A program made the position numbers and the translations under genes. Shown here in pieces: positions 8,476 to 19,199 of a stretch of DNA of 33,044 nucleotides. Each line of letters starts with the position of its first letter. Position 1 is the stretch's first letter. The notes beneath the pieces are model-generated. The model ran no database searches. It saw nothing but the letters and a program-made list of their open reading frames with translations, and had not been told where the DNA came from. This DNA is from Spirochaetaceae bacterium (GTDB lineage: Bacteria > Spirochaetota > Spirochaetia > DSM-2461), in the NCBI GenBank assembly GCA_016342385.1, contig JAEINM010000003.1, positions 1 through 33,044 of the forward strand, read 5' to 3'.

Positions 8476-9987
8476 ATGGGCAGTAAGACATTCAGAGATA
8501 AGCTAAAAAAGGCTCAGGAATTCATCGGTGGAGGACATTATCGGGAAGCTCTTAGTCTCATCATAGATGAAGAGGTCTCCAGTGTTCGGGAATTATTCAA
8601 TAAAATAGCCTCTCTTATAGATATCGGTTTTGCTCTTCGCGATGAAAAGGTGCTCCGTTATGGCATTTATCTCTTTGAAGAGCACCACAAGGAGATTATC
8701 GTACTTGTGGATTACAGAGCTCTGGTCTACTACAATCTTGCCAATCAATATGCCAATATGGCGACACTGAAGTCATTTGATAACGATTACTATAGCTGCT
8801 TTTCCCGTAGTGAACTGCAGAAGGCTAAAATGTATTATTATCTCGCCCTGGAATCTGAGAAACTGGAAGTCGGATTGAAGCGGGATATTCATATCAGTCT
8901 GGCAAACTGTTTCCGCACATTGGGCCGTTTTGAAGAAGCTCTTGAACATTACAATAATGCCCTTTTAACAGATCCCTCATCACTAATCGCTCTGGATAAT
9001 AAGACTGAACTTATGGTGGGACTCTCTTCTCTGTACTGGGATAAACGGGATGAGATTCTTAAAGAGAGCTGGGATCTGATCCAGAGCAAAGTCAATGATC
9101 AAAATGCCGCTATGAATAAAGATCTTCTGACAAAAAGCCTGACAACGATAAAAGAGCTTATTTCCAGGAAAGATTATCTGCAGGAGGAACAGATCCTACC
9201 TGTTTATACTATTGAAAGTTCCAGTGATTTCGAACATTTCTACATTTCCTGGTGTATTAAAAATAAACTGTATCTTAACTTCTGCAATTTCTGCCGAAAA
9301 TGTGATTATGCAGCAGGTGACAGAGCAGTGATTAAGAAGCAGGATATCTCTATCGGAAGAGAAGACCGCGGTCGATTTCTCCGTTTGGCATCAGCATACA
9401 ATAAACTCAAAGCTGATTATGTCAGTTCCCGGTTTCTCCTGATCCTCTCCCAGTATGAAGATCTGGATCTGGGATTTGTCAATGTAATGGCTCCCATGAT
9501 AGAAGTGCCCGGTATGGAGATCATTGATATAAAAAGTTCACTACAGAATCAGGCCTTTTTATCTCTCTGGAGGATCTGGGATAATATAGCCGCCTTTCTC
9601 AATATATACCTTTCATTCAATATGACCGGTTATATCTCAATGAAAGATATATGGTATAGCGGGGGGAATGTTAAAAAAGAAATTATTGAAAAAAAAGACC
9701 TGCTGTTAAATTCGGTGTATGATATTTACTGTGACATGTATCAGGGTAGGTTTGAAAAACTTCCTCTTTTATTTGAAATCCTCAGTGGAAAAGGTAATAG
9801 TATTAGTAAAAGTGGTTTTAACGACGAATTGAATAGAGAGGAACTGACTATAGAATTGTTTCAGGTTGTACGTCACATTCTTATGATTCTTATGCAGATG
9901 CTCGATAGCGAGGAAAAAGATGATTCAGATTTTAGAATTAATTTCCCCCTCTATTCTTTTGAAATACCCGATGCGATTAAAATATAA
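8476..9987 (+). CDS. TPR protein with possible LA2681/HEPN-like C-terminal helical domain
   Basis: TPR signature DIHISLANCFRTLGRFEEALEHYNNALLTDPSSLIALDNK; C-terminal LWRIWDNIAAFLNIYLSF...IWYSG...LLNSVYDIYCDMY reads like a HEPN_LA2681-type domain (family assignment from memory). Confidence 0.65.
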   Translation: MGSKTFRDKLKKAQEFIGGGHYREALSLIIDEEVSSVRELFNKIASLIDIGFALRDEKVLRYGIYLFEEHHKEIIVLVDYRALVYYNLANQYANMATLKSFDNDYYSCFSRSELQKAKMYYYLALESEKLEVGLKRDIHISLANCFRTLGRFEEALEHYNNALLTDPSSLIALDNKTELMVGLSSLYWDKRDEILKESWDLIQSKVNDQNAAMNKDLLTKSLTTIKELISRKDYLQEEQILPVYTIESSSDFEHFYISWCIKNKLYLNFCNFCRKCDYAAGDRAVIKKQDISIGREDRGRFLRLASAYNKLKADYVSSRFLLILSQYEDLDLGFVNVMAPMIEVPGMEIIDIKSSLQNQAFLSLWRIWDNIAAFLNIYLSFNMTGYISMKDIWYSGGNVKKEIIEKKDLLLNSVYDIYCDMYQGRFEKLPLLFEILSGKGNSISKSGFNDELNREELTIELFQVVRHILMILMQMLDSEEKDDSDFRINFPLYSFEIPDAIKI

Positions 9988-10013: not shown

Positions 10014-12614
10014 ATGGCAACTGGATTGAACATTAAAAGAAACTCCCGGATTTTTCACATAGCAAATGAGTGTTATATCATCTATCTCGGTGTTAAGACC
10101 GATGAAGAAAAACCCTTTCTCCGTGTCGGAAATATGGAAAATATTGATAATAAAATACTCGATGTCATCTCCAATACAGTCATATCTTCACGATTTACAG
10201 GGAATCCTCTCTATGAATTGAATCTTGAGAAAACCCGGGAGATCAATTATATCGGAGATACTTCTGTTATTAACAGGATGAAAACCTATCTCGATAGTTT
10301 TCATCTTCCCTCTGAAGGTGCTGTGGATTATCATAAGATTAAAGATAGGGAAAAGAGAGATATTATTTATTTCTATAACAATGGGAATATAAAGCTCAAT
10401 TATAAAGAGGAATCTATTTTTGATCTCTACAAGCGTTCAGAAACGGATCTTCATTTTGTCAAACAATGTGACGAAATTAAAAAAAGCTTCTCCCGGAATC
10501 CCCTGCGTTATACGAAACACGATTTTCGTGAAAGTGGAATTCTTCTTTCTGGAAAGAGCCTGATTGTCTTTCATAATAGTCAGTTCTTTTCCGCTTACTT
10601 AAATAGAGACTATTTTTCAAAACTGGCAGCATCAGGTGTCGATCCCGATCAGATCACCGTTCACTATTCTCAAATCAAGGGTGGTACAGAAGATGAAGAT
10701 GCTTCATTTGCCCTGATTGAAATGCTCAAGCGCAGCAGTTACAGGGACTCGCTTTTTACAGTCCATGCCAAGTACCCCGATTACGCCCGCAAAATAGGGG
10801 CTTTATTTCCCGGTGCTCAGATCAGTAAATCAGGACCTGAATGGTGTGATGTTTTCAGTGGATTGAAGATGAGAGATCATGGAGCCGGATTGGAGATCAG
10901 TTGCAGTGGTATACCGATGAATCTGGCTATCGGCGACGAGCCGGCTTTTCCGGAGGTTCTGGCTCTTAATCATCATACCAGGACTCTCTCAATTAAAGGG
11001 GAGCATCAAACCCATGAAATAAGCATTCCCGATGGAATCCTTTGTAATATTAAAGACAAACCCTCTGACATGAGTGATCTGACTGAAGTTTACATATCAC
11101 GATTTGTACCTTTGATTAAAGGTTTTTCTTCAGAGGATGATTTTAAGGTTTCTGTAGCCATTCAGAAATTATTGAAAATGCTCGCTTCTGTGGCTGACGG
11201 TAAAGCAAAATCGGGGCTGATTATGAGAAGCTCTGTTTTTAACTTTTCCGATCTGTTAAAAAACCTTCATTTGAAAAATGACTCAATTGTAACTTTTTTT
11301 CTGCAAAATGCTCTGACCATTCTGGATCTGGCCTTAAGTCGATCAGATATGGAAGGTAAGATTGTTAAGAATATAACATCAATTAAAAGTGATATTCAAA
11401 GTATACTGACCAAATCGGAAAAAGCTGATTCTCTATTGCCCGTGGCCGCAGATATTTATATAAGGGAATTCCCCATGCTCTTATTCCGATCTGTTAAAAG
11501 TACGGCAAAAAAAGCTGATTATCTTCTGGCGGCACAGTTGGCTGACGATATTCAGGGCGAACACGATCTTTCTCCCCAGTATTATAAAGATGAAAAGATG
11601 CGCTTGTTAAAACTAATCGATATGCTGAATTCTGCAACAGACCTCGAGGTTGATAAGCTCCTGGAGAGAGAAAAACCGGCAGAACCTTACAGAGCCAGGA
11701 AAACGGAAATATTGGACAGCCGTGGTAAAAGAACAGAAAGTGTCCTAGGTGAATCAGAAAAATATGGAACCAGCCGAAAGGGCCTTAACGCGATCAGACG
11801 GAAGGACAATGGTCGATGGCCATTGTGGCTGTTGCTTCTACTCATTCCTTTCCTTCTCCTTTTATTGTGGGGCGGGTATAGAGGTATTAATTATCTGGCG
11901 AATCGCGATAAAACTGATCCTGTTGCTGTGCGGGGAGACATGGAGACAGGAGAAGGCAGACAGGAAGACGGTTCTGCAGAAGATAGTGTTGCGGATGAAG
12001 CAGCTGGGGATAGAACCACTTCGGATAGTACTGCCGCAGATAGTACTGCCGCAGATGGCACTGCCGCAGATGGCACTACCGCAGATGGTATTACCGAAAG
12101 TGAAAAAAATTCAGAAATAACGGAAACAGAATTAAAGCTTAAGGAAACTGACGCCGAAACAGATAATAGAGAGAATCAGCCTGAAGAAATTATCATGGAA
12201 ACCGATAGCCGGCCCTCTACAGTGGAAGAGGTCAAAGCCTATCTTTCTGTTGGTGATTTCTATATTTCAGAGATTGATGTTCATCTTACTTCCAATGAGA
12301 TTGCTGTGGAAAATAATTACAGAGATCTCGATTATGAAGTATATGATGGTGCCGATCCCGATTGGATATATCCGGGTAATAAAATAGTGTTGCCCGATGG
12401 AAATATCCACTATGTTAAAAAAGGTGATACTATCTGGTATATGGCAGCCAGGTATATCAGAACTACGCTGGATAGGGATATTCCTATTTATGAGATGAAT
12501 CGCGTAGATGCTGAGAACGGTAATGCAAAGGCAATATCGGTACTTGAAGAATTAATGGAAAGCACTCCCTGTGAAACTTTTCGTGAAAAAATACATGAAG
12601 TTTTAAAAAATTAA
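10014..12614 (+). CDS. Bitopic membrane protein: large N-terminal cytoplasmic region, one TM helix, low-complexity linker, LysM-like C-terminus
   Basis: No signal peptide; RRKDNGR precedes TM WPLWLLLLLIPFLLLLLWGGYRGINYLA (about 11817-11900); Ser/Thr/Ala/Asp repeats; IYPGNKIVLPDGNIHYVKKGDTIWYMAARYI is LysM-like. Confidence 0.75.
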   Translation: MATGLNIKRNSRIFHIANECYIIYLGVKTDEEKPFLRVGNMENIDNKILDVISNTVISSRFTGNPLYELNLEKTREINYIGDTSVINRMKTYLDSFHLPSEGAVDYHKIKDREKRDIIYFYNNGNIKLNYKEESIFDLYKRSETDLHFVKQCDEIKKSFSRNPLRYTKHDFRESGILLSGKSLIVFHNSQFFSAYLNRDYFSKLAASGVDPDQITVHYSQIKGGTEDEDASFALIEMLKRSSYRDSLFTVHAKYPDYARKIGALFPGAQISKSGPEWCDVFSGLKMRDHGAGLEISCSGIPMNLAIGDEPAFPEVLALNHHTRTLSIKGEHQTHEISIPDGILCNIKDKPSDMSDLTEVYISRFVPLIKGFSSEDDFKVSVAIQKLLKMLASVADGKAKSGLIMRSSVFNFSDLLKNLHLKNDSIVTFFLQNALTILDLALSRSDMEGKIVKNITSIKSDIQSILTKSEKADSLLPVAADIYIREFPMLLFRSVKSTAKKADYLLAAQLADDIQGEHDLSPQYYKDEKMRLLKLIDMLNSATDLEVDKLLEREKPAEPYRARKTEILDSRGKRTESVLGESEKYGTSRKGLNAIRRKDNGRWPLWLLLLLIPFLLLLLWGGYRGINYLANRDKTDPVAVRGDMETGEGRQEDGSAEDSVADEAAGDRTTSDSTAADSTAADGTAADGTTADGITESEKNSEITETELKLKETDAETDNRENQPEEIIMETDSRPSTVEEVKAYLSVGDFYISEIDVHLTSNEIAVENNYRDLDYEVYDGADPDWIYPGNKIVLPDGNIHYVKKGDTIWYMAARYIRTTLDRDIPIYEMNRVDAENGNAKAISVLEELMESTPCETFREKIHEVLKN
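12024..12098 (+). repeat. 15-bp in-frame tandem repeat encoding D-[SG]-[TI]-[AT]-[AE]
   Basis: GATAGTACTGCCGCA x2, GATGGCACTGCCGCA, GATGGCACTACCGCA, GATGGTATTACCGAA; preceded by a degenerate copy GATAGAACCACTTCG. Confidence 0.9.
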
Positions 12615-12737: not shown

Positions 12738-14729
12738 ATGGCAGGAGATCTTCCTAGAAGTCCCAATGTATTTCATCCAACTAAACCTTCGGCAGTAGGT
12801 TCCAGAAACAGTCTTGCTCAGGAAGGACGTGAGCAAAATGAAGAATTTGATCGGTTAATAACTGAGGAAAGTGAAAAAGTTCTCAAGGAAGTAACCACAA
12901 GACTGCCACCTGAAGTTCTGAAAGAACTTGATGTGATGGGTGGTCTTAAACAAAAAGTTTATAACTACTATAACCAGAATTACCAGAACATGTTCAACCG
13001 TTATATCGTTACGACTGAAGATGAAATGGTTAAAAAAATCAGAAACTTTGTTGATAAAGAAGAAACAAAGGCTTTAGCCAGGTATACGCCTAAAGAAATT
13101 TCTGAACTTTTAGATCAGGTCGGTGGGGCAGATAAATTTAATACAGGTGAAATTGAGAAATCAATGATCAATATGTATGGTCACCTTCAGGGCCATATGC
13201 AGAGAGGTATGAATGACCTTGAAAATGAAACTAACTCACTTCTGAGACAGAAGACCGATGTTGGTGCGTTTATTCGTGGAGAGAATGCATACTCAATTGT
13301 TAAGTGTGCCTTTAAAGACAATCCGATTAAACCCAAAACTATATCCGATGTTAAACTTTCTGTTAATATTCTTGACTCTGAACTGATTTCACCGATTTTC
13401 CAGTATCAGGCTTCTGTCGAGTATATTATTAAAGATCAGATTTCCAAGACAATCATAGATATGATTGATAAAGAAGTTGAGGTTTTCCAGGATCAGCTTG
13501 TTGATGAAGGAAAAGAGGAGCTGGCTGATTCTGAAATAATGTTTGAGAGAATCAAAAGAGTTCCTGACTTTACAGATGATGACAAGGAAAATGCTGATTC
13601 CAGAAGATATACATTCATGGCAAAAGAGCTGGTTGATAAGATTGAAGGTCTTAGGGCAGAAATCCCTAAAGATGAATTTGATTCCCAGAACATTCGAGAA
13701 AATATTAAGAAAATTGTCGATATTGAGAATATTAGAAACAGGGGTTTTAATACGGCTGTCAATAATATTACCGCTATCCTCGATACGAGCAAAATGGGTT
13801 ATCAGTATATTGAAAACCTGAAGAATGGTCGTGAACTTATTATCAGAGAATATGAAGATACAAATGAACTAATGCTTCCCGATGAGCGCTATGCTATAAA
13901 GCTGAAATATTATGATCACAGCCAGCTTGTAAAAATCAGAGCGGCCTATGATCTGCAGATGGATGAATTCAGAAAAGAAATCATTCATATCTGGGATGTG
14001 GCGGAAGTCGTTTACCAGGGTACAAAGCGATTTGGAAGAATCGATGACTTCGATGATCTTGCACTGAAAACCAAAGGTAAATTGTCGAAACTGGTTGGAA
14101 ACAGAGGCATACACAATCTTCAGGGTGATACTCTTTATGAAGATGAAGTCAAACTCTGGAACGAGATTCTTCAATTAAAAGCAGAGGATACAGAAGTTGA
14201 AAAACTCAATCAGACTTATCTTCATGAAAAAGATCTTCTGAAAAAAATGTTAAGAAGAGTTCGGGCTAAAGTAAAAACTACTTTCGGTTATGAAAATCCT
14301 AAAACAAGAGTTGTTATGGATCAGAGAATTGATTTTCTGGAAAATGAATTTGAATCTTTTGATTACCAGATTAATCCTTATCACATCCAGCCGGGTATAA
14401 TCCTTGATGTAGACATTACCAGTATCAAGAGAAAGAAATTTACTCTTAACAGAATGGCTAATGTTCTCAATGAATTCCTCAATGGTGTGTCAAAAGGATT
14501 CCAGGATGCTGCATTTGCTTCATTTAAACGAAGACGGTCAACAGTTCGTGAAGATATTAATCAGAGCTTTGCTTCTGATGTTTCCGCCAGCGAGCAGTCC
14601 CAGAGCAGTTATTCCATGGATCAGTTGAAAGCTAAAGGTGCACAGTCCGATGAGGCCAAAGGCAAAGCAGACGTTACACCTAAAAGGCGTAGTAAAAAAA
14701 TAAATATGGACGAATTAAGCGAGCTTTAA
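12738..14729 (+). CDS. cfpA: Cytoplasmic filament protein A (CfpA-type)
   Basis: N-terminus [61 protein letters not shown] recognised as spirochaete CfpA; 663 aa, no TM, helical; next to a PPDK-like gene as I recall for T. pallidum; RBS GAGGAGAG. Confidence 0.85.
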
Positions 14730-14732
14730 TGT

Positions 14733-15677
14733 ATGAAAGAAGTAGACAGTGCCAATAAACTGAATCTACTTTCAAGCAGGGCGGGATTTAATCTCGCTCT
14801 GCGTCACTTTAAAAGGGTTCTGGCTTTTTCTTCAGAAGTCGACGACGGTGAAAATCTGGCCGATCTTTTAAATGAGGCGCTTGATGAAAGTGAAATTCAG
14901 GAAAACCAGATTAGACCTATCATAAACTCATTACTGATTCAGAAATTCAACTACAAATATAAATCACACAACCTTGTTGAGTCGGTTATCTTTTCAGAAA
15001 AAATCATCAATACTGTAAATCAGTGGACTGCAATAGAACTTGTTGTATTGTATTATAATCCATCGTCAGAAATCTCAGTCATAAATCCCAAAAACCGATC
15101 AAACATTGACACTGAACAGCGTCTGGTTAAGGATGAGCTGATAGTCTGTTATTCAGGAGCTGCAGAAGAAGGTGTTTCTGATACAACTCTGAGATCAGCA
15201 GCAGATGACTTTTTAAAACTCATATATGGTGAGGATGTTGCCGTCCGGGATGATTACAAAAGCTGCCGGGGAAGCTTTTCAAAAAAAACAGCTGCTCCTG
15301 AAAAAGTTGTCCTTAATAAACCTGTAGATCCTCAACCTTCAGGGAAAAGAAGGGTTACCACAAAATATGGTGTTCAGGTGACAAATGAAGTTTTTCACAA
15401 TGGGAATGTTGAAGCTTGGAAGAAAATAATCGATAGTTATACAACTGCTTATCCCGGGACTGAAATACTTGTGTGGTACGAGGATGAAAAGATAAATGAT
15501 ATTAATGCTCTATTTAAGTGGGGTAAAGTAAAACACGGGTGTCCTATTATGTTCAGTGTTGCCGGTGATGAAATAAAGGATGTTTCCAAGCTAAAAAAAT
15601 ACCTTTTTGAAGGAGCCAGTTCCCGGTTCGAGGCTTTTTTAAAGGGTGCTGTAGGAAGTGTTCTGGATCTATTTTAA
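14733..15677 (+). CDS. Conserved hypothetical protein of the cfpA cluster, likely translationally coupled
   Basis: 314-aa ORF starting 4 nt after the cfpA stop; no motif recognised. Confidence 0.8.
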   Translation: MKEVDSANKLNLLSSRAGFNLALRHFKRVLAFSSEVDDGENLADLLNEALDESEIQENQIRPIINSLLIQKFNYKYKSHNLVESVIFSEKIINTVNQWTAIELVVLYYNPSSEISVINPKNRSNIDTEQRLVKDELIVCYSGAAEEGVSDTTLRSAADDFLKLIYGEDVAVRDDYKSCRGSFSKKTAAPEKVVLNKPVDPQPSGKRRVTTKYGVQVTNEVFHNGNVEAWKKIIDSYTTAYPGTEILVWYEDEKINDINALFKWGKVKHGCPIMFSVAGDEIKDVSKLKKYLFEGASSRFEAFLKGAVGSVLDLF

Positions 15678-15692
15678 TAAAGGGTTTTACAT

Positions 15693-18323
15693 ATGAATGA
15701 GATTTATTCCTTTAGTAGCGAAGAATATACAGCAGATTCTAAAATGATTGAAACAATGGGTATCCGAGGAAAGAGGATTATGGAGCTGGCCAAACTGGGT
15801 GTTCCTACTCTTCCAGGATTTATCCTTAATAATGATTTTCTGGAAACAGAAGAAGAATCTCCTAAAGAGCATTTTACTAATTTTAAAGCAGCCATTACTA
15901 AAATCGGAAATATTCTGGATAAGAAATTTGGTGATCCACAAAATCCTCTACTGGTAAAAATGGTCGTCAGCCCCATGTTGAATATGGTGTATACAGTATT
16001 CAGCGTACATAATATCGGTCTTTGCGATTCCACGATAGATGGTTTTTCCGCCTTTGTCGGTGAGAGTTTTGCCTATCATGAATATCGAAATGTTATTTTA
16101 CGAATTATAGAACTGGATTTGAAAAGCACAGAAGAAAAAGACCGGAAAAAAACCCTAACAAGTTTACTGACAAAAGTTAAAAAAGTCAAAAGTGTCGCCA
16201 AAATAAAAGAAGTGATGGAAAATGTAAAAGAATTTTATCCTTTGGAAATTTTTACTGATGCCTGGAAACAGAGTGCCTTTGTTGAAAATCTATATAAGCG
16301 ATTTTTTATCGGAAATGAAGCTCTTAATGATTCTGCTCTTCTTGTACAGGCTATGACTTTTGGGAACTATGGAAAAGAGAGTTATTTCGGCAGTTATTAC
16401 ACGAGAAATATTGTGACAGGAAAAGGGGAGCTCTCAGGTGAATACTTTGAAAATTCCTTTGATTCCAAAGGGAAGAATGGTAAAAAGATCACCTTAATTA
16501 AAGCCCCCTATTTAGATGGCCTCAAACAGATAGCTTCTGAATTGGAGAGAAGTTATAAAGAGATCAGAAAGATAACTTTTACAATAGAAGACGGTAGATT
16601 ATGGGTCATTGACCAGTTTGAATCATCAGATAAATCAACTCAAGCAGAGATGAAAACACTTCTGGATCTACATAAAGATGAAGTAATTGATGATAATTAT
16701 CTCATTCACGCTCTTAAACCGGGGAGGTTTGCTGAAATTCTTCATCCCGTACTGGATAAAGAGGCTGCCAAAGATGTTCCTTTTGTTCAGGGAGGCATTG
16801 CCGGTGCCATGGGCGCGGCTGTGGGTAAAATTTATTTCTCAACAGATAGACTTCTCAAAGAGTATAAAATTGCACAGCAGAAAAATCTTGATCTTGATTT
16901 TATACTGATCATGTCTTCAACTTATGCAGAAGATGTTAAAGCGATTGAAGTCGCAAGAGGGGTAGTGACTCAGGAAGGTGGTTATGCATCACATGCTCCT
17001 GTTGTAGCGAGAAGCCTTGGAAAAATCGCTATGGTTTATCCGGAAATGGAATTCAAGAAAGATCATATTGTTATTGATGGAAAGAAATTAAAAGAGGGTG
17101 ATATCATAGCTCTCGATGTGCCATCATATGATAAACCCAAAATCTATTTCAGTAAATTACCACTGATTGAACCTAAGATAAAAGACTGTGGTATTTTAGA
17201 ATTCCTGGAGATAATTCAGAGGCATATTGGCGATTTTGATATCCATGCCAATGCAGATCAGCCCAAGGATGCTGAACTGGCAAAACTTTTTAAAGCTGAT
17301 GGTATTGGATTGTGTAGAACAGAACATATGTTTTTTGAAGAGAAGAGAATCGCCATTTTCAGAACCCTGATAATAGCTGATTCAAAAGAGGAAAGAATAA
17401 AAGCATTAAATAAACTGAAGCCGATGCAGGTCGGTGATTTCTACAATTTATTTAAGATAATGGAAAGTCATCCAGTCACTATCAGGCTTCTCGATGCTCC
17501 ACTACACGAGTTTCTGCCTCATACCAGACAGAGTATGATTGACTTTATTGAGTTTGCCCTAAAACAGAACCCCAAGCTCACGGAAGTAGAAATACGCGAA
17601 AGATGTGATATGCTAGGCGAACAGAATCCTATGCTTGGACACAGAGGTGTCAGAGTGGCTATTACTTATCCGGAAATTTACAACATGCAGGTTTCCGCTA
17701 TTTTTGAAGCAGCCTATAAGCTGCAGAAAGAGGGGATAGATATAGTTCCGGAAATTATGATCCCTATTATTATGGATGCCAATGAAGTCCGGGCTATTCG
17801 TTTCGGAAAAAAAATCGAAGGAACTGAAATTATCGGAATCACTGAAATAGAGAAGCAGGTTCGCGATAAAATGGGTGGCCGTGCTCTTGAATACAAAGTC
17901 GGTGTAATGATCGAACTGCCTGCGGCTGTGCTCAATGCCGACAAAATTGCTAAATATGCTGACTTTTTCAGCTTTGGAACAAATGATCTTACGCAGACAA
18001 CGAATGGTTTATCCAGAGATGATTTTAACTCCTTCTTTACAAATTATAGTGAATTTGACCTTCTGGAAAAGAATCCGTTCCAGGTGCTGGGCAAACAGGT
18101 TAAAGAGATGATTTCTATAGCTGCGGAAAGAGGTCATTTGACCAGACCGGATATATCCATGGGAATCTGCGGAGAGCATGGGGCAGAACCATCAAATCTG
18201 CCGTTTATCAGATCCTGCGGATTAAACTATGCATCCTGTTCTCCCTATGGTATTCCCATAGCAAAACTTGCTCTAGCTCAAATGAATGTTGAACCGGCAA
18301 AAGGACAACGCCGGGCCTTCTGA
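15693..18323 (+). CDS. Pyruvate phosphate dikinase-like protein with degenerate ATP-binding domain
   Basis: TQEGGYASHAPVVARSLGK (phospho-His), GIGLCRTEHMFF, VTIRLLDAPLHEFLP, EQNPMLGHRGVRVAITYPEI, FFSFGTNDLTQ, GICGEHGAEPSN conserved; N-terminal nucleotide motifs lost. Confidence 0.9.
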   Translation: MNEIYSFSSEEYTADSKMIETMGIRGKRIMELAKLGVPTLPGFILNNDFLETEEESPKEHFTNFKAAITKIGNILDKKFGDPQNPLLVKMVVSPMLNMVYTVFSVHNIGLCDSTIDGFSAFVGESFAYHEYRNVILRIIELDLKSTEEKDRKKTLTSLLTKVKKVKSVAKIKEVMENVKEFYPLEIFTDAWKQSAFVENLYKRFFIGNEALNDSALLVQAMTFGNYGKESYFGSYYTRNIVTGKGELSGEYFENSFDSKGKNGKKITLIKAPYLDGLKQIASELERSYKEIRKITFTIEDGRLWVIDQFESSDKSTQAEMKTLLDLHKDEVIDDNYLIHALKPGRFAEILHPVLDKEAAKDVPFVQGGIAGAMGAAVGKIYFSTDRLLKEYKIAQQKNLDLDFILIMSSTYAEDVKAIEVARGVVTQEGGYASHAPVVARSLGKIAMVYPEMEFKKDHIVIDGKKLKEGDIIALDVPSYDKPKIYFSKLPLIEPKIKDCGILEFLEIIQRHIGDFDIHANADQPKDAELAKLFKADGIGLCRTEHMFFEEKRIAIFRTLIIADSKEERIKALNKLKPMQVGDFYNLFKIMESHPVTIRLLDAPLHEFLPHTRQSMIDFIEFALKQNPKLTEVEIRERCDMLGEQNPMLGHRGVRVAITYPEIYNMQVSAIFEAAYKLQKEGIDIVPEIMIPIIMDANEVRAIRFGKKIEGTEIIGITEIEKQVRDKMGGRALEYKVGVMIELPAAVLNADKIAKYADFFSFGTNDLTQTTNGLSRDDFNSFFTNYSEFDLLEKNPFQVLGKQVKEMISIAAERGHLTRPDISMGICGEHGAEPSNLPFIRSCGLNYASCSPYGIPIAKLALAQMNVEPAKGQRRAF

Positions 18324-18374: not shown

Positions 18375-19199
18375 TTAATCATATAACTCAATTAAACCCA
18401 TATCATTTAAATCTGTCATTTCAAGGAATGATAAGAGTAATCCTTTTTTTATTTCACTCTCCCTTACGCATAATGCCTGGGGATAATCGATCAATACTGT
18501 ATTGAGTTCTGCTTCTGCCAGTTTGATGTTTTCTGTCAATCTGCCTCGTTTATAGGGTTCCATAAACTCTTTGAACATAACTTCTTTCAATACACTGTCA
18601 ACCAGTTTCGAGCCACATACATAATGACGGAAAGCTTTCATTTCGTAAGAACTGTTTTCTTCTGCTCTTATGCTCTTTATATGAATACTTTTATAAAAAT
18701 AGCGTATAAAATTAACTATAATTTCCAATTGGTCTAATTCCTGTTTGCTTAAGTGTAATTCGGCTATGGGTTGTAAAAGAGCGAAACTTTTTTTTATTCT
18801 CCTGATGGATGACCTGTAACGGGTTCTACGGGTTCCTTCCTGTCTTAAAGCGATGTTTTCCAGACCATACTGGTAGTAGAGGCATATGCCTTCATGAAGG
18901 TATTTCATGGCCTGTGCTGTTCCTTCTTCAAAAGAGATATTTCCAACAGAATAATCTCTTTGTTTTTTCTCTTCTTCTATGGTGGGGACATCGATTTCTA
19001 TTTGTGGTTGTGATAGGAATTCATAGGCGGAATTATAGGCATCATTGATATAGAGCATTTGGCGGTTTGACCATTCCTGTTTATCCTGATTCAGGTCGGG
19101 ATGATACTTTTTCACGAGCTTTCGGAAAATTGAGGTGAGATCCTTTAGAGATGATTCTTCAGTGAGCCCAAGGACTCTTAATGATTTCTTATGTTCCAT
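18375..19199 (-). CDS. J-domain (DnaJ-like) protein with unknown C-terminal region
   Basis: SLRVLGLTEESSLKDLTSIFRKLVKKYHPDLNQDKQEW...INDAYNSAYEFL, HPD retained. Confidence 0.85.
   Translation of the reverse strand: MEHKKSLRVLGLTEESSLKDLTSIFRKLVKKYHPDLNQDKQEWSNRQMLYINDAYNSAYEFLSQPQIEIDVPTIEEEKKQRDYSVGNISFEEGTAQAMKYLHEGICLYYQYGLENIALRQEGTRRTRYRSSIRRIKKSFALLQPIAELHLSKQELDQLEIIVNFIRYFYKSIHIKSIRAEENSSYEMKAFRHYVCGSKLVDSVLKEVMFKEFMEPYKRGRLTENIKLAEAELNTVLIDYPQALCVRESEIKKGLLLSFLEMTDLNDMGLIELYD

Follow-up and report, generated by a model that had tools for sequence, protein, structure and literature searches.

The stretch of DNA considered here (the window, 33,044 nucleotides from a Spirochaetaceae bacterium) carries three consecutive genes on the forward strand: cfpA, encoding cytoplasmic filament protein A; a gene that we call D; and a gene for a relative of PPDK that we term pseudo-PPDK (Table 1). 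The start of D lies 3 nt past the cfpA stop, while that of pseudo-PPDK lies 15 nt past D and is preceded by an AAAGGG stretch, so that the three genes look like one transcription unit. The pseudo-PPDK frame is a genuine open reading frame with no internal stops, and all the motifs quoted from it in the initial annotation are indeed present, including the Arg25 codon (15765-15767) at the position equivalent to K22.

Table 1. Genes, domains and key codons of the cfpA cluster (positions are those of the window)
Feature	Position	Strand	Basis and remarks
cfpA, cytoplasmic filament protein A (663 aa)	12738..14729	+	NCBIfam NF040882 cfpA_ASD, 1060 bits (cut-off 500)
Gene D (314 aa): N-terminal domain and predicted HPr-like C-terminal domain	14733..15677	+	ORF, predicted model
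Predicted HPr-like C-terminal domain of D, residues 207-314, beta-alpha-beta-beta-alpha-beta-alpha	15351..15674	+	AlphaFold2, Foldseek, hhalign
D His222 codon, proposed phosphoacceptor (= HPr His15 position)	15396..15398	+	Immediately precedes helix 223-239; invariant (128/128)
Pseudo-PPDK (876 aa), EI-like phosphotransferase proposed to use PEP	15693..18323	+	PPDK homology, residue comparison
Degenerate ATP-grasp (nucleotide-binding) domain, residues 1-340	15693..16712	+	K22, R92, D321, E323 and R337 equivalents gone; Q335 equivalent retained (Q308)
Swivelling-domain His434 codon (= His455 of C. symbiosum PPDK), within GGYASHAPVVAR	16992..16994	+	Retained in 121/121 homologues; Pfam PF00391 at residues 403-475
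PEP/pyruvate-binding domain, residues 513-865	17229..18287	+	Pfam PF02896, E=8e-69; R542, R598, R651, E741, N764, D765, C826 intact

The pseudo-PPDK protein is, on the evidence of the alignments, PPDK-derived. Solved PPDKs align with it over its full length (phmmer E ~1e-140 to Clostridium symbiosum PPDK, 1kbl/1dik), and the predicted structure (mean pLDDT 85.8) shows a three-domain fold for which the top matches are PPDK structures, EI structures also being found among the fold matches. It shares with PPDK an end-to-end homology, the three domains, the swivelling His and the PEP site, but differs in its linkage to cfpA, in forming a separate clade and in scoring below the cut-off of the PPDK equivalog family TIGR01828 (651 against 843 bits). 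The mobile His and PEP-binding domains are recognised by Pfam, whereas neither the nucleotide-binding domain of PPDK nor the N-terminal HPr-binding helical domain of EI (PEP-utilisers N, PF05524) has a Pfam match in the protein.

The difference is most pronounced in the nucleotide site. The ATP half-reaction of PPDK reportedly depends on K22, R92, D321, E323, Q335 and R337, an assignment credited to Ye et al. 2001. Using the numbering of C. symbiosum PPDK (its sequence being taken from the 1ggo alignment and verified at known sites), the substitutions in pseudo-PPDK are K22 to R25, R92 to V91, G94 to S93, D321 to K293, E323 to T295 and R337 to E310, while His455 (H434), R561, R617, R665, E745, T767-N768-D769 and C831 are retained. 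This pattern extends across the phylum. Each of K22, R92, D321, E323 and R337 is kept in none of 121 homologues, compared with all five in 9 of 9 canonical PPDKs: the K22 equivalent is R in 117 of the 121 (the other four being gaps), that of R92 is V in 114, that of E323 is never E, being R or K in 113, and those of D321 (Q, R, E, N and others) and R337 (P, E, S, D, A and others) never restore the original residue. On the other hand, the H455 equivalent occurs in all 121, and R561, R617, R665, E745, T767, N768, D769 and C831 show no variation at ungapped positions. Such a combination of a lost ATP site with a retained His and PEP site is far from chance. The K22A and R337A mutants of PPDK occur among the solved structures matched. 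In PMC4844700, Ye et al. 2001 stands as reference 34.

Two details of the initial annotation have to be modified in the light of this comparison. It held that Q335 was replaced together with the other five residues; replacement of those five holds throughout the family, but the Q335 equivalent is Q in 119 of the 121 homologues, Q308 being aligned to it by a one-residue gap in FTIEDGRLWVID, on which phmmer and MAFFT concur. Similarly, the PEP-domain motifs were described as intact, and this is correct for every PEP-site residue checked, except that MIELPAA, while retaining E745, has Ala in place of Arg748 of the canonical MIEIPRA. The broader proposal, that PEP-to-His transfer was kept while ATP/AMP chemistry was lost in an EI-like protein that is linked to CfpA and would not be a metabolic dikinase, is consistent with every comparative test; the alignment with solved PPDKs and spirochaete homologues that it called for extends both the loss and the retention to the whole family, and homologues with intact ATP motifs, named beforehand as refuting, were sought among the 121 and none was found.

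The domains of pseudo-PPDK also differ in their rates of divergence. Within the family the mean pairwise identity is 0.40 for the N-terminal, 0.61 for the His and 0.64 for the PEP domain, as against 0.67, 0.65 and 0.63, respectively, in canonical PPDKs, so that faster N-terminal evolution is confined to the pseudo-PPDK family. In two homologues the erosion has gone further, one beginning past the ATP-grasp domain altogether (L078, with matches from residue 311) and another having an ATP-grasp domain that is barely recognisable (L091), yet both retain the His and each adjoins a D with the motif VTN[DE]LFHNGNVEAWKRII. The pseudo-PPDKs constitute a single clade (116 sequences; stem 0.81 substitutions/site, support 0.80), and belong neither to the functional PPDKs, whose defining ATP-site residues they lack, nor to the EI family. 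A second, canonical PPDK, which the initial annotation had suggested looking for, is encoded by the same genome on a different contig (G000:C535, L003), and therefore pseudo-PPDK represents neither an assembly error nor decay; an assembly error or recent pseudogene is likewise ruled out by the identical loss across the 121 homologues. Ordinary EI-like proteins are encoded in this genome apart from pseudo-PPDK. Elsewhere the distribution of canonical PPDK is independent: numerous carriers of the pseudo form have a separate canonical enzyme, some genomes have the pseudo form alone (e.g. G056, G130 and G096) and many the canonical form alone.

In its distribution pseudo-PPDK follows cfpA and D. 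Among 393 Spirochaetota genomes searched, CfpA is found in 138, D in 133 and pseudo-PPDK in 136 (two of these being divergent or fragmented copies), and all three occur in 130 of the 142 genomes having at least one of them. The co-occurrence of CfpA and pseudo-PPDK has a Fisher p of ~3e-88 when genomes are treated as independent and kinship is ignored. Since the same families (f1, f3, f6, f8, f9 and f11) include both genomes with all three genes and genomes with none, joint loss must have occurred on at least two occasions. When 84,980 species were scanned independently for the C-terminal domain of D, 344 relatives emerged. The best 80 of these 344 come from spirochaete records or unnamed bacteria, and in their neighbourhoods D is followed on the same strand by pseudo-PPDK in all 80, with at most 316 nt between the open frames, CfpA being also in view at 74; rarer carriers of D outside Spirochaetota may exist beyond these best 80. 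The association is not without exceptions. In family f49 (L072, L073, L093, L094) cfpA and D remain together while pseudo-PPDK lies ~5-6 kb from D, so that the cluster is partly dispersed; in f47 each of the three lies on a different contig; and in G344 (L095, L096) D and pseudo-PPDK stay together, cfpA lying elsewhere. CfpA occurs without pseudo-PPDK in the incomplete genomes G114, G210, G214 and G222, and a search of G122 (93% complete, with CfpA) found no pseudo-PPDK homologue. D and pseudo-PPDK are both absent from G304, which encodes a divergent 803-aa CfpA-like protein (31-41% identity; L088, 3899-6337). In one Treponema genome (G288) pseudo-PPDK is read in two frames (L092, 7394-10077), reflecting either a sequencing error or a real frameshift. 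The co-occurrence of the three genes denotes functional linkage and is not proof of phosphotransfer.

The same three genes are found in the same order at the cfpA locus of Treponema (TP0748-TP0746; TDE0842-TDE0844; L042, L043), where, in the literature that we found, the third gene is by contrast taken for a PPDK of glycolysis and the second for a hypothetical gene. In T. denticola the expression of TDE0842-0844 changes jointly (PMC3914990), and a cfpA mutant has defects in chromosome condensation and cell division (PMC3398590), which is where a relay phenotype might be looked for. For TP0747, TDE0843 and TDE0844 the literature found amounts to one expression study. In the literature searched we found no phosphorelay proposed for this locus, no description of such a PPDK pseudoenzyme and no account of how the spirochaete cytoplasmic filament is regulated.

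One question then is what could receive a phosphoryl group from pseudo-PPDK, and here the structure of D is suggestive. No Pfam or NCBIfam family was found for D, none of 38 members has PF00381 among the families listed, and profile searches of the PDB did not find HPr, yielding one unrelated weak match at 6e-4. Because HPr is thus missed by plain sequence search, the comparison, proposed from the D sequence ahead of the structure model, was made by fold and by profile-profile alignment with shuffled and natural-slice controls. In the AlphaFold2 model of D (mean pLDDT 86.7, pTM 0.57) residues 212-294 are predicted to follow the HPr order of secondary structure, with strand-helix-strand-strand-helix-strand-helix and His222 placed directly before the first helix, matching the location of the HPr His at the head of helix A. 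The best PDB match of the C-terminal domain in Foldseek is HPr 1ka5 (prob 1.00, E 0.014, TM 0.59 on target), and the top 50 are mostly HPr or Crh, with TM on target of 0.46-0.66 and E-values above 0.001. In hhalign the domain scores 30.4 against an HPr alignment (E 7e-5 for a single comparison) and 27.4 against a spirochaete-only HPr profile, the controls reaching at most 23.4 in 100 column-shuffled HPr alignments and 20.3 over 61 segments cut from unrelated alignments; single HPr sequences of E. coli or B. subtilis type, taken in approximate form, give 14.3 and 16.9, which is background, so that only the profile stood out. Given the failure of Pfam and PDB profiles and the Foldseek E-values, the assignment depends on the modelled fold together with a profile match that is weak. 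His222 is conserved in 128 of 128 D sequences, within a nearly fixed segment FHNGNVEAWK. However, D differs from HPr and NPr in lacking the HARPA motif, in having HNGN where HPr has its His and the Arg at +2 (R17), and in being fused to an N-terminal domain. The HPr-like domain with its invariant His, absent from the initial annotation, provides the strongest support for its EI-like reading.

Taking these observations together, we think it somewhat probable that pseudo-PPDK and D constitute a PEP-driven, EI/HPr-like phosphorelay module linked to CfpA filaments. Judging from its intact residues, the C-terminal barrel would bind PEP and the phosphoryl group would pass to the swivelling His434 with release of pyruvate; with the nucleotide site destroyed, the phosphate could not then pass on to AMP and PPi. 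The swivelling domain would instead donate the phosphate to another protein, most likely to His222 of D, as EI does to HPr, with the former ATP-grasp domain now serving for scaffolding or docking. CfpA filaments could in turn respond to whether D is phosphorylated, and hence to the PEP/pyruvate ratio, either through binding or through a further transfer of the phosphate. By analogy with PTS Enzyme I and EI-Ntr (PtsI, PtsP), which share with pseudo-PPDK a common ancestry of the PEP barrel and swivelling domain, the proposed function would be transfer from PEP to a protein His; unlike EI, pseudo-PPDK derives from PPDK. That the His and the neighbouring D motif persist where the ATP-grasp domain is lost (L078) or eroded (L091) appears to favour the relay, while the absence from D of the HPr R17 and from pseudo-PPDK of the HPr-binding helical domain would count against it, as do the separation of the genes in f49 and their dispersal in f47. 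In its widest form the proposal would be that a PEP-driven His phosphorelay, comprising a PPDK-derived analogue of EI and a divergent HPr and evolved apart from the PTS, controls cytoplasmic filament assembly and so ties the division and architecture of the cell to its glycolytic state (PEP/pyruvate), the 'PPDK' of T. pallidum being a regulator and not a glycolytic enzyme; this we offer tentatively, at somewhat less than even odds.

The case of T. pallidum, the agent of syphilis, deserves attention in this context. TP0746 has been described as an ATP-forming PPDK (PMC10013896), and its coordinates there are those of the homologue in G056 (810731-813337, L042), which carries the residues of the pseudo-PPDK family; by these residues TP0746 belongs to that family, and its published role as an ATP-forming step is called into question. 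In G056 we found neither a PF00224 pyruvate kinase nor a canonical PPDK, and since TP0746 lacks the ATP site the route from PEP to pyruvate in T. pallidum would need reassessment. This genome encodes a GTP-type PEP carboxykinase and an oxaloacetate decarboxylase beta subunit (L201, L202), which together make a candidate route.

How strongly do these data argue against other functions? That pseudo-PPDK is still a metabolic enzyme with an altered nucleotide site, converting PEP, AMP and PPi to pyruvate, ATP and Pi, is the reaction assigned to TP0746 in the literature, and the need of G056 for a route from PEP to pyruvate would be accommodated by it. We nonetheless regard this as very unlikely, since all 121 homologues have lost all five ATP-site residues, the ATP-grasp domain is lost or eroded in two lineages, many carriers possess a separate canonical PPDK, the gene co-varies with cfpA, and the carboxykinase and decarboxylase of G056 could bypass the step. 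The same metabolic need would be served by a PEP phosphatase, or by transfer of the phosphate to a small molecule, yielding pyruvate without ATP at the intact PEP site and His, with D and CfpA serving to localise the enzyme; but the energy of PEP would be wasted, pyruvate kinase is also present in 11 of 12 sampled carriers and the conserved HPr-like surface of D would be left unexplained, so that this too is very improbable.

Other readings reassign the part of D. A PEP-gated switch, in which phosphorylation by PEP changes the conformation of pseudo-PPDK, D and CfpA bind one of the states and His222 is structural, is compatible with all the residue data for pseudo-PPDK and with the missing Arg17 equivalent in D; it is however unlikely, as the HPr-like fold and the invariant His at the start of the first helix would then be a coincidence. 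Alternatively, the phosphate could pass directly from pseudo-PPDK to CfpA, with D as an adaptor presenting the filament, in keeping with the shared operon-like cluster and the co-occurrence. The HPr-like fold and the His belong to D, though, CfpA contains no known acceptor motif, and D and pseudo-PPDK stay paired in G344, where cfpA is elsewhere, making direct transfer a distinctly remote prospect. If the relay from pseudo-PPDK to D is real, it would provide a testable metabolic input for the spirochaete cytoplasmic filament and would mean that an EI/HPr-type relay has arisen a second time, in this instance from a dikinase.

The cluster is flanked by further genes. Directly 5' of cfpA, a forward-strand gene (10014-12614) encodes a possible wall or membrane anchor of the filament, a protein that has a hydrophobic segment internally and a LysM-like stretch at its C-terminus; weakly conserved homologues lie 5' of cfpA in families f1, f7, f11, f17, f18, f21, f24, f42 and f45. 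Upstream of this (8476-9987, forward strand) is encoded a TPR protein with a LA2681-like HEPN domain; in G350 and G362, too, homologues of it lie 5' of the cluster. On the 3' side of pseudo-PPDK, a convergent gene on the reverse strand (18375-19199) encodes a J-domain protein that occupies the same place in families f1, f7, f11, f17, f18, f21 and f24.
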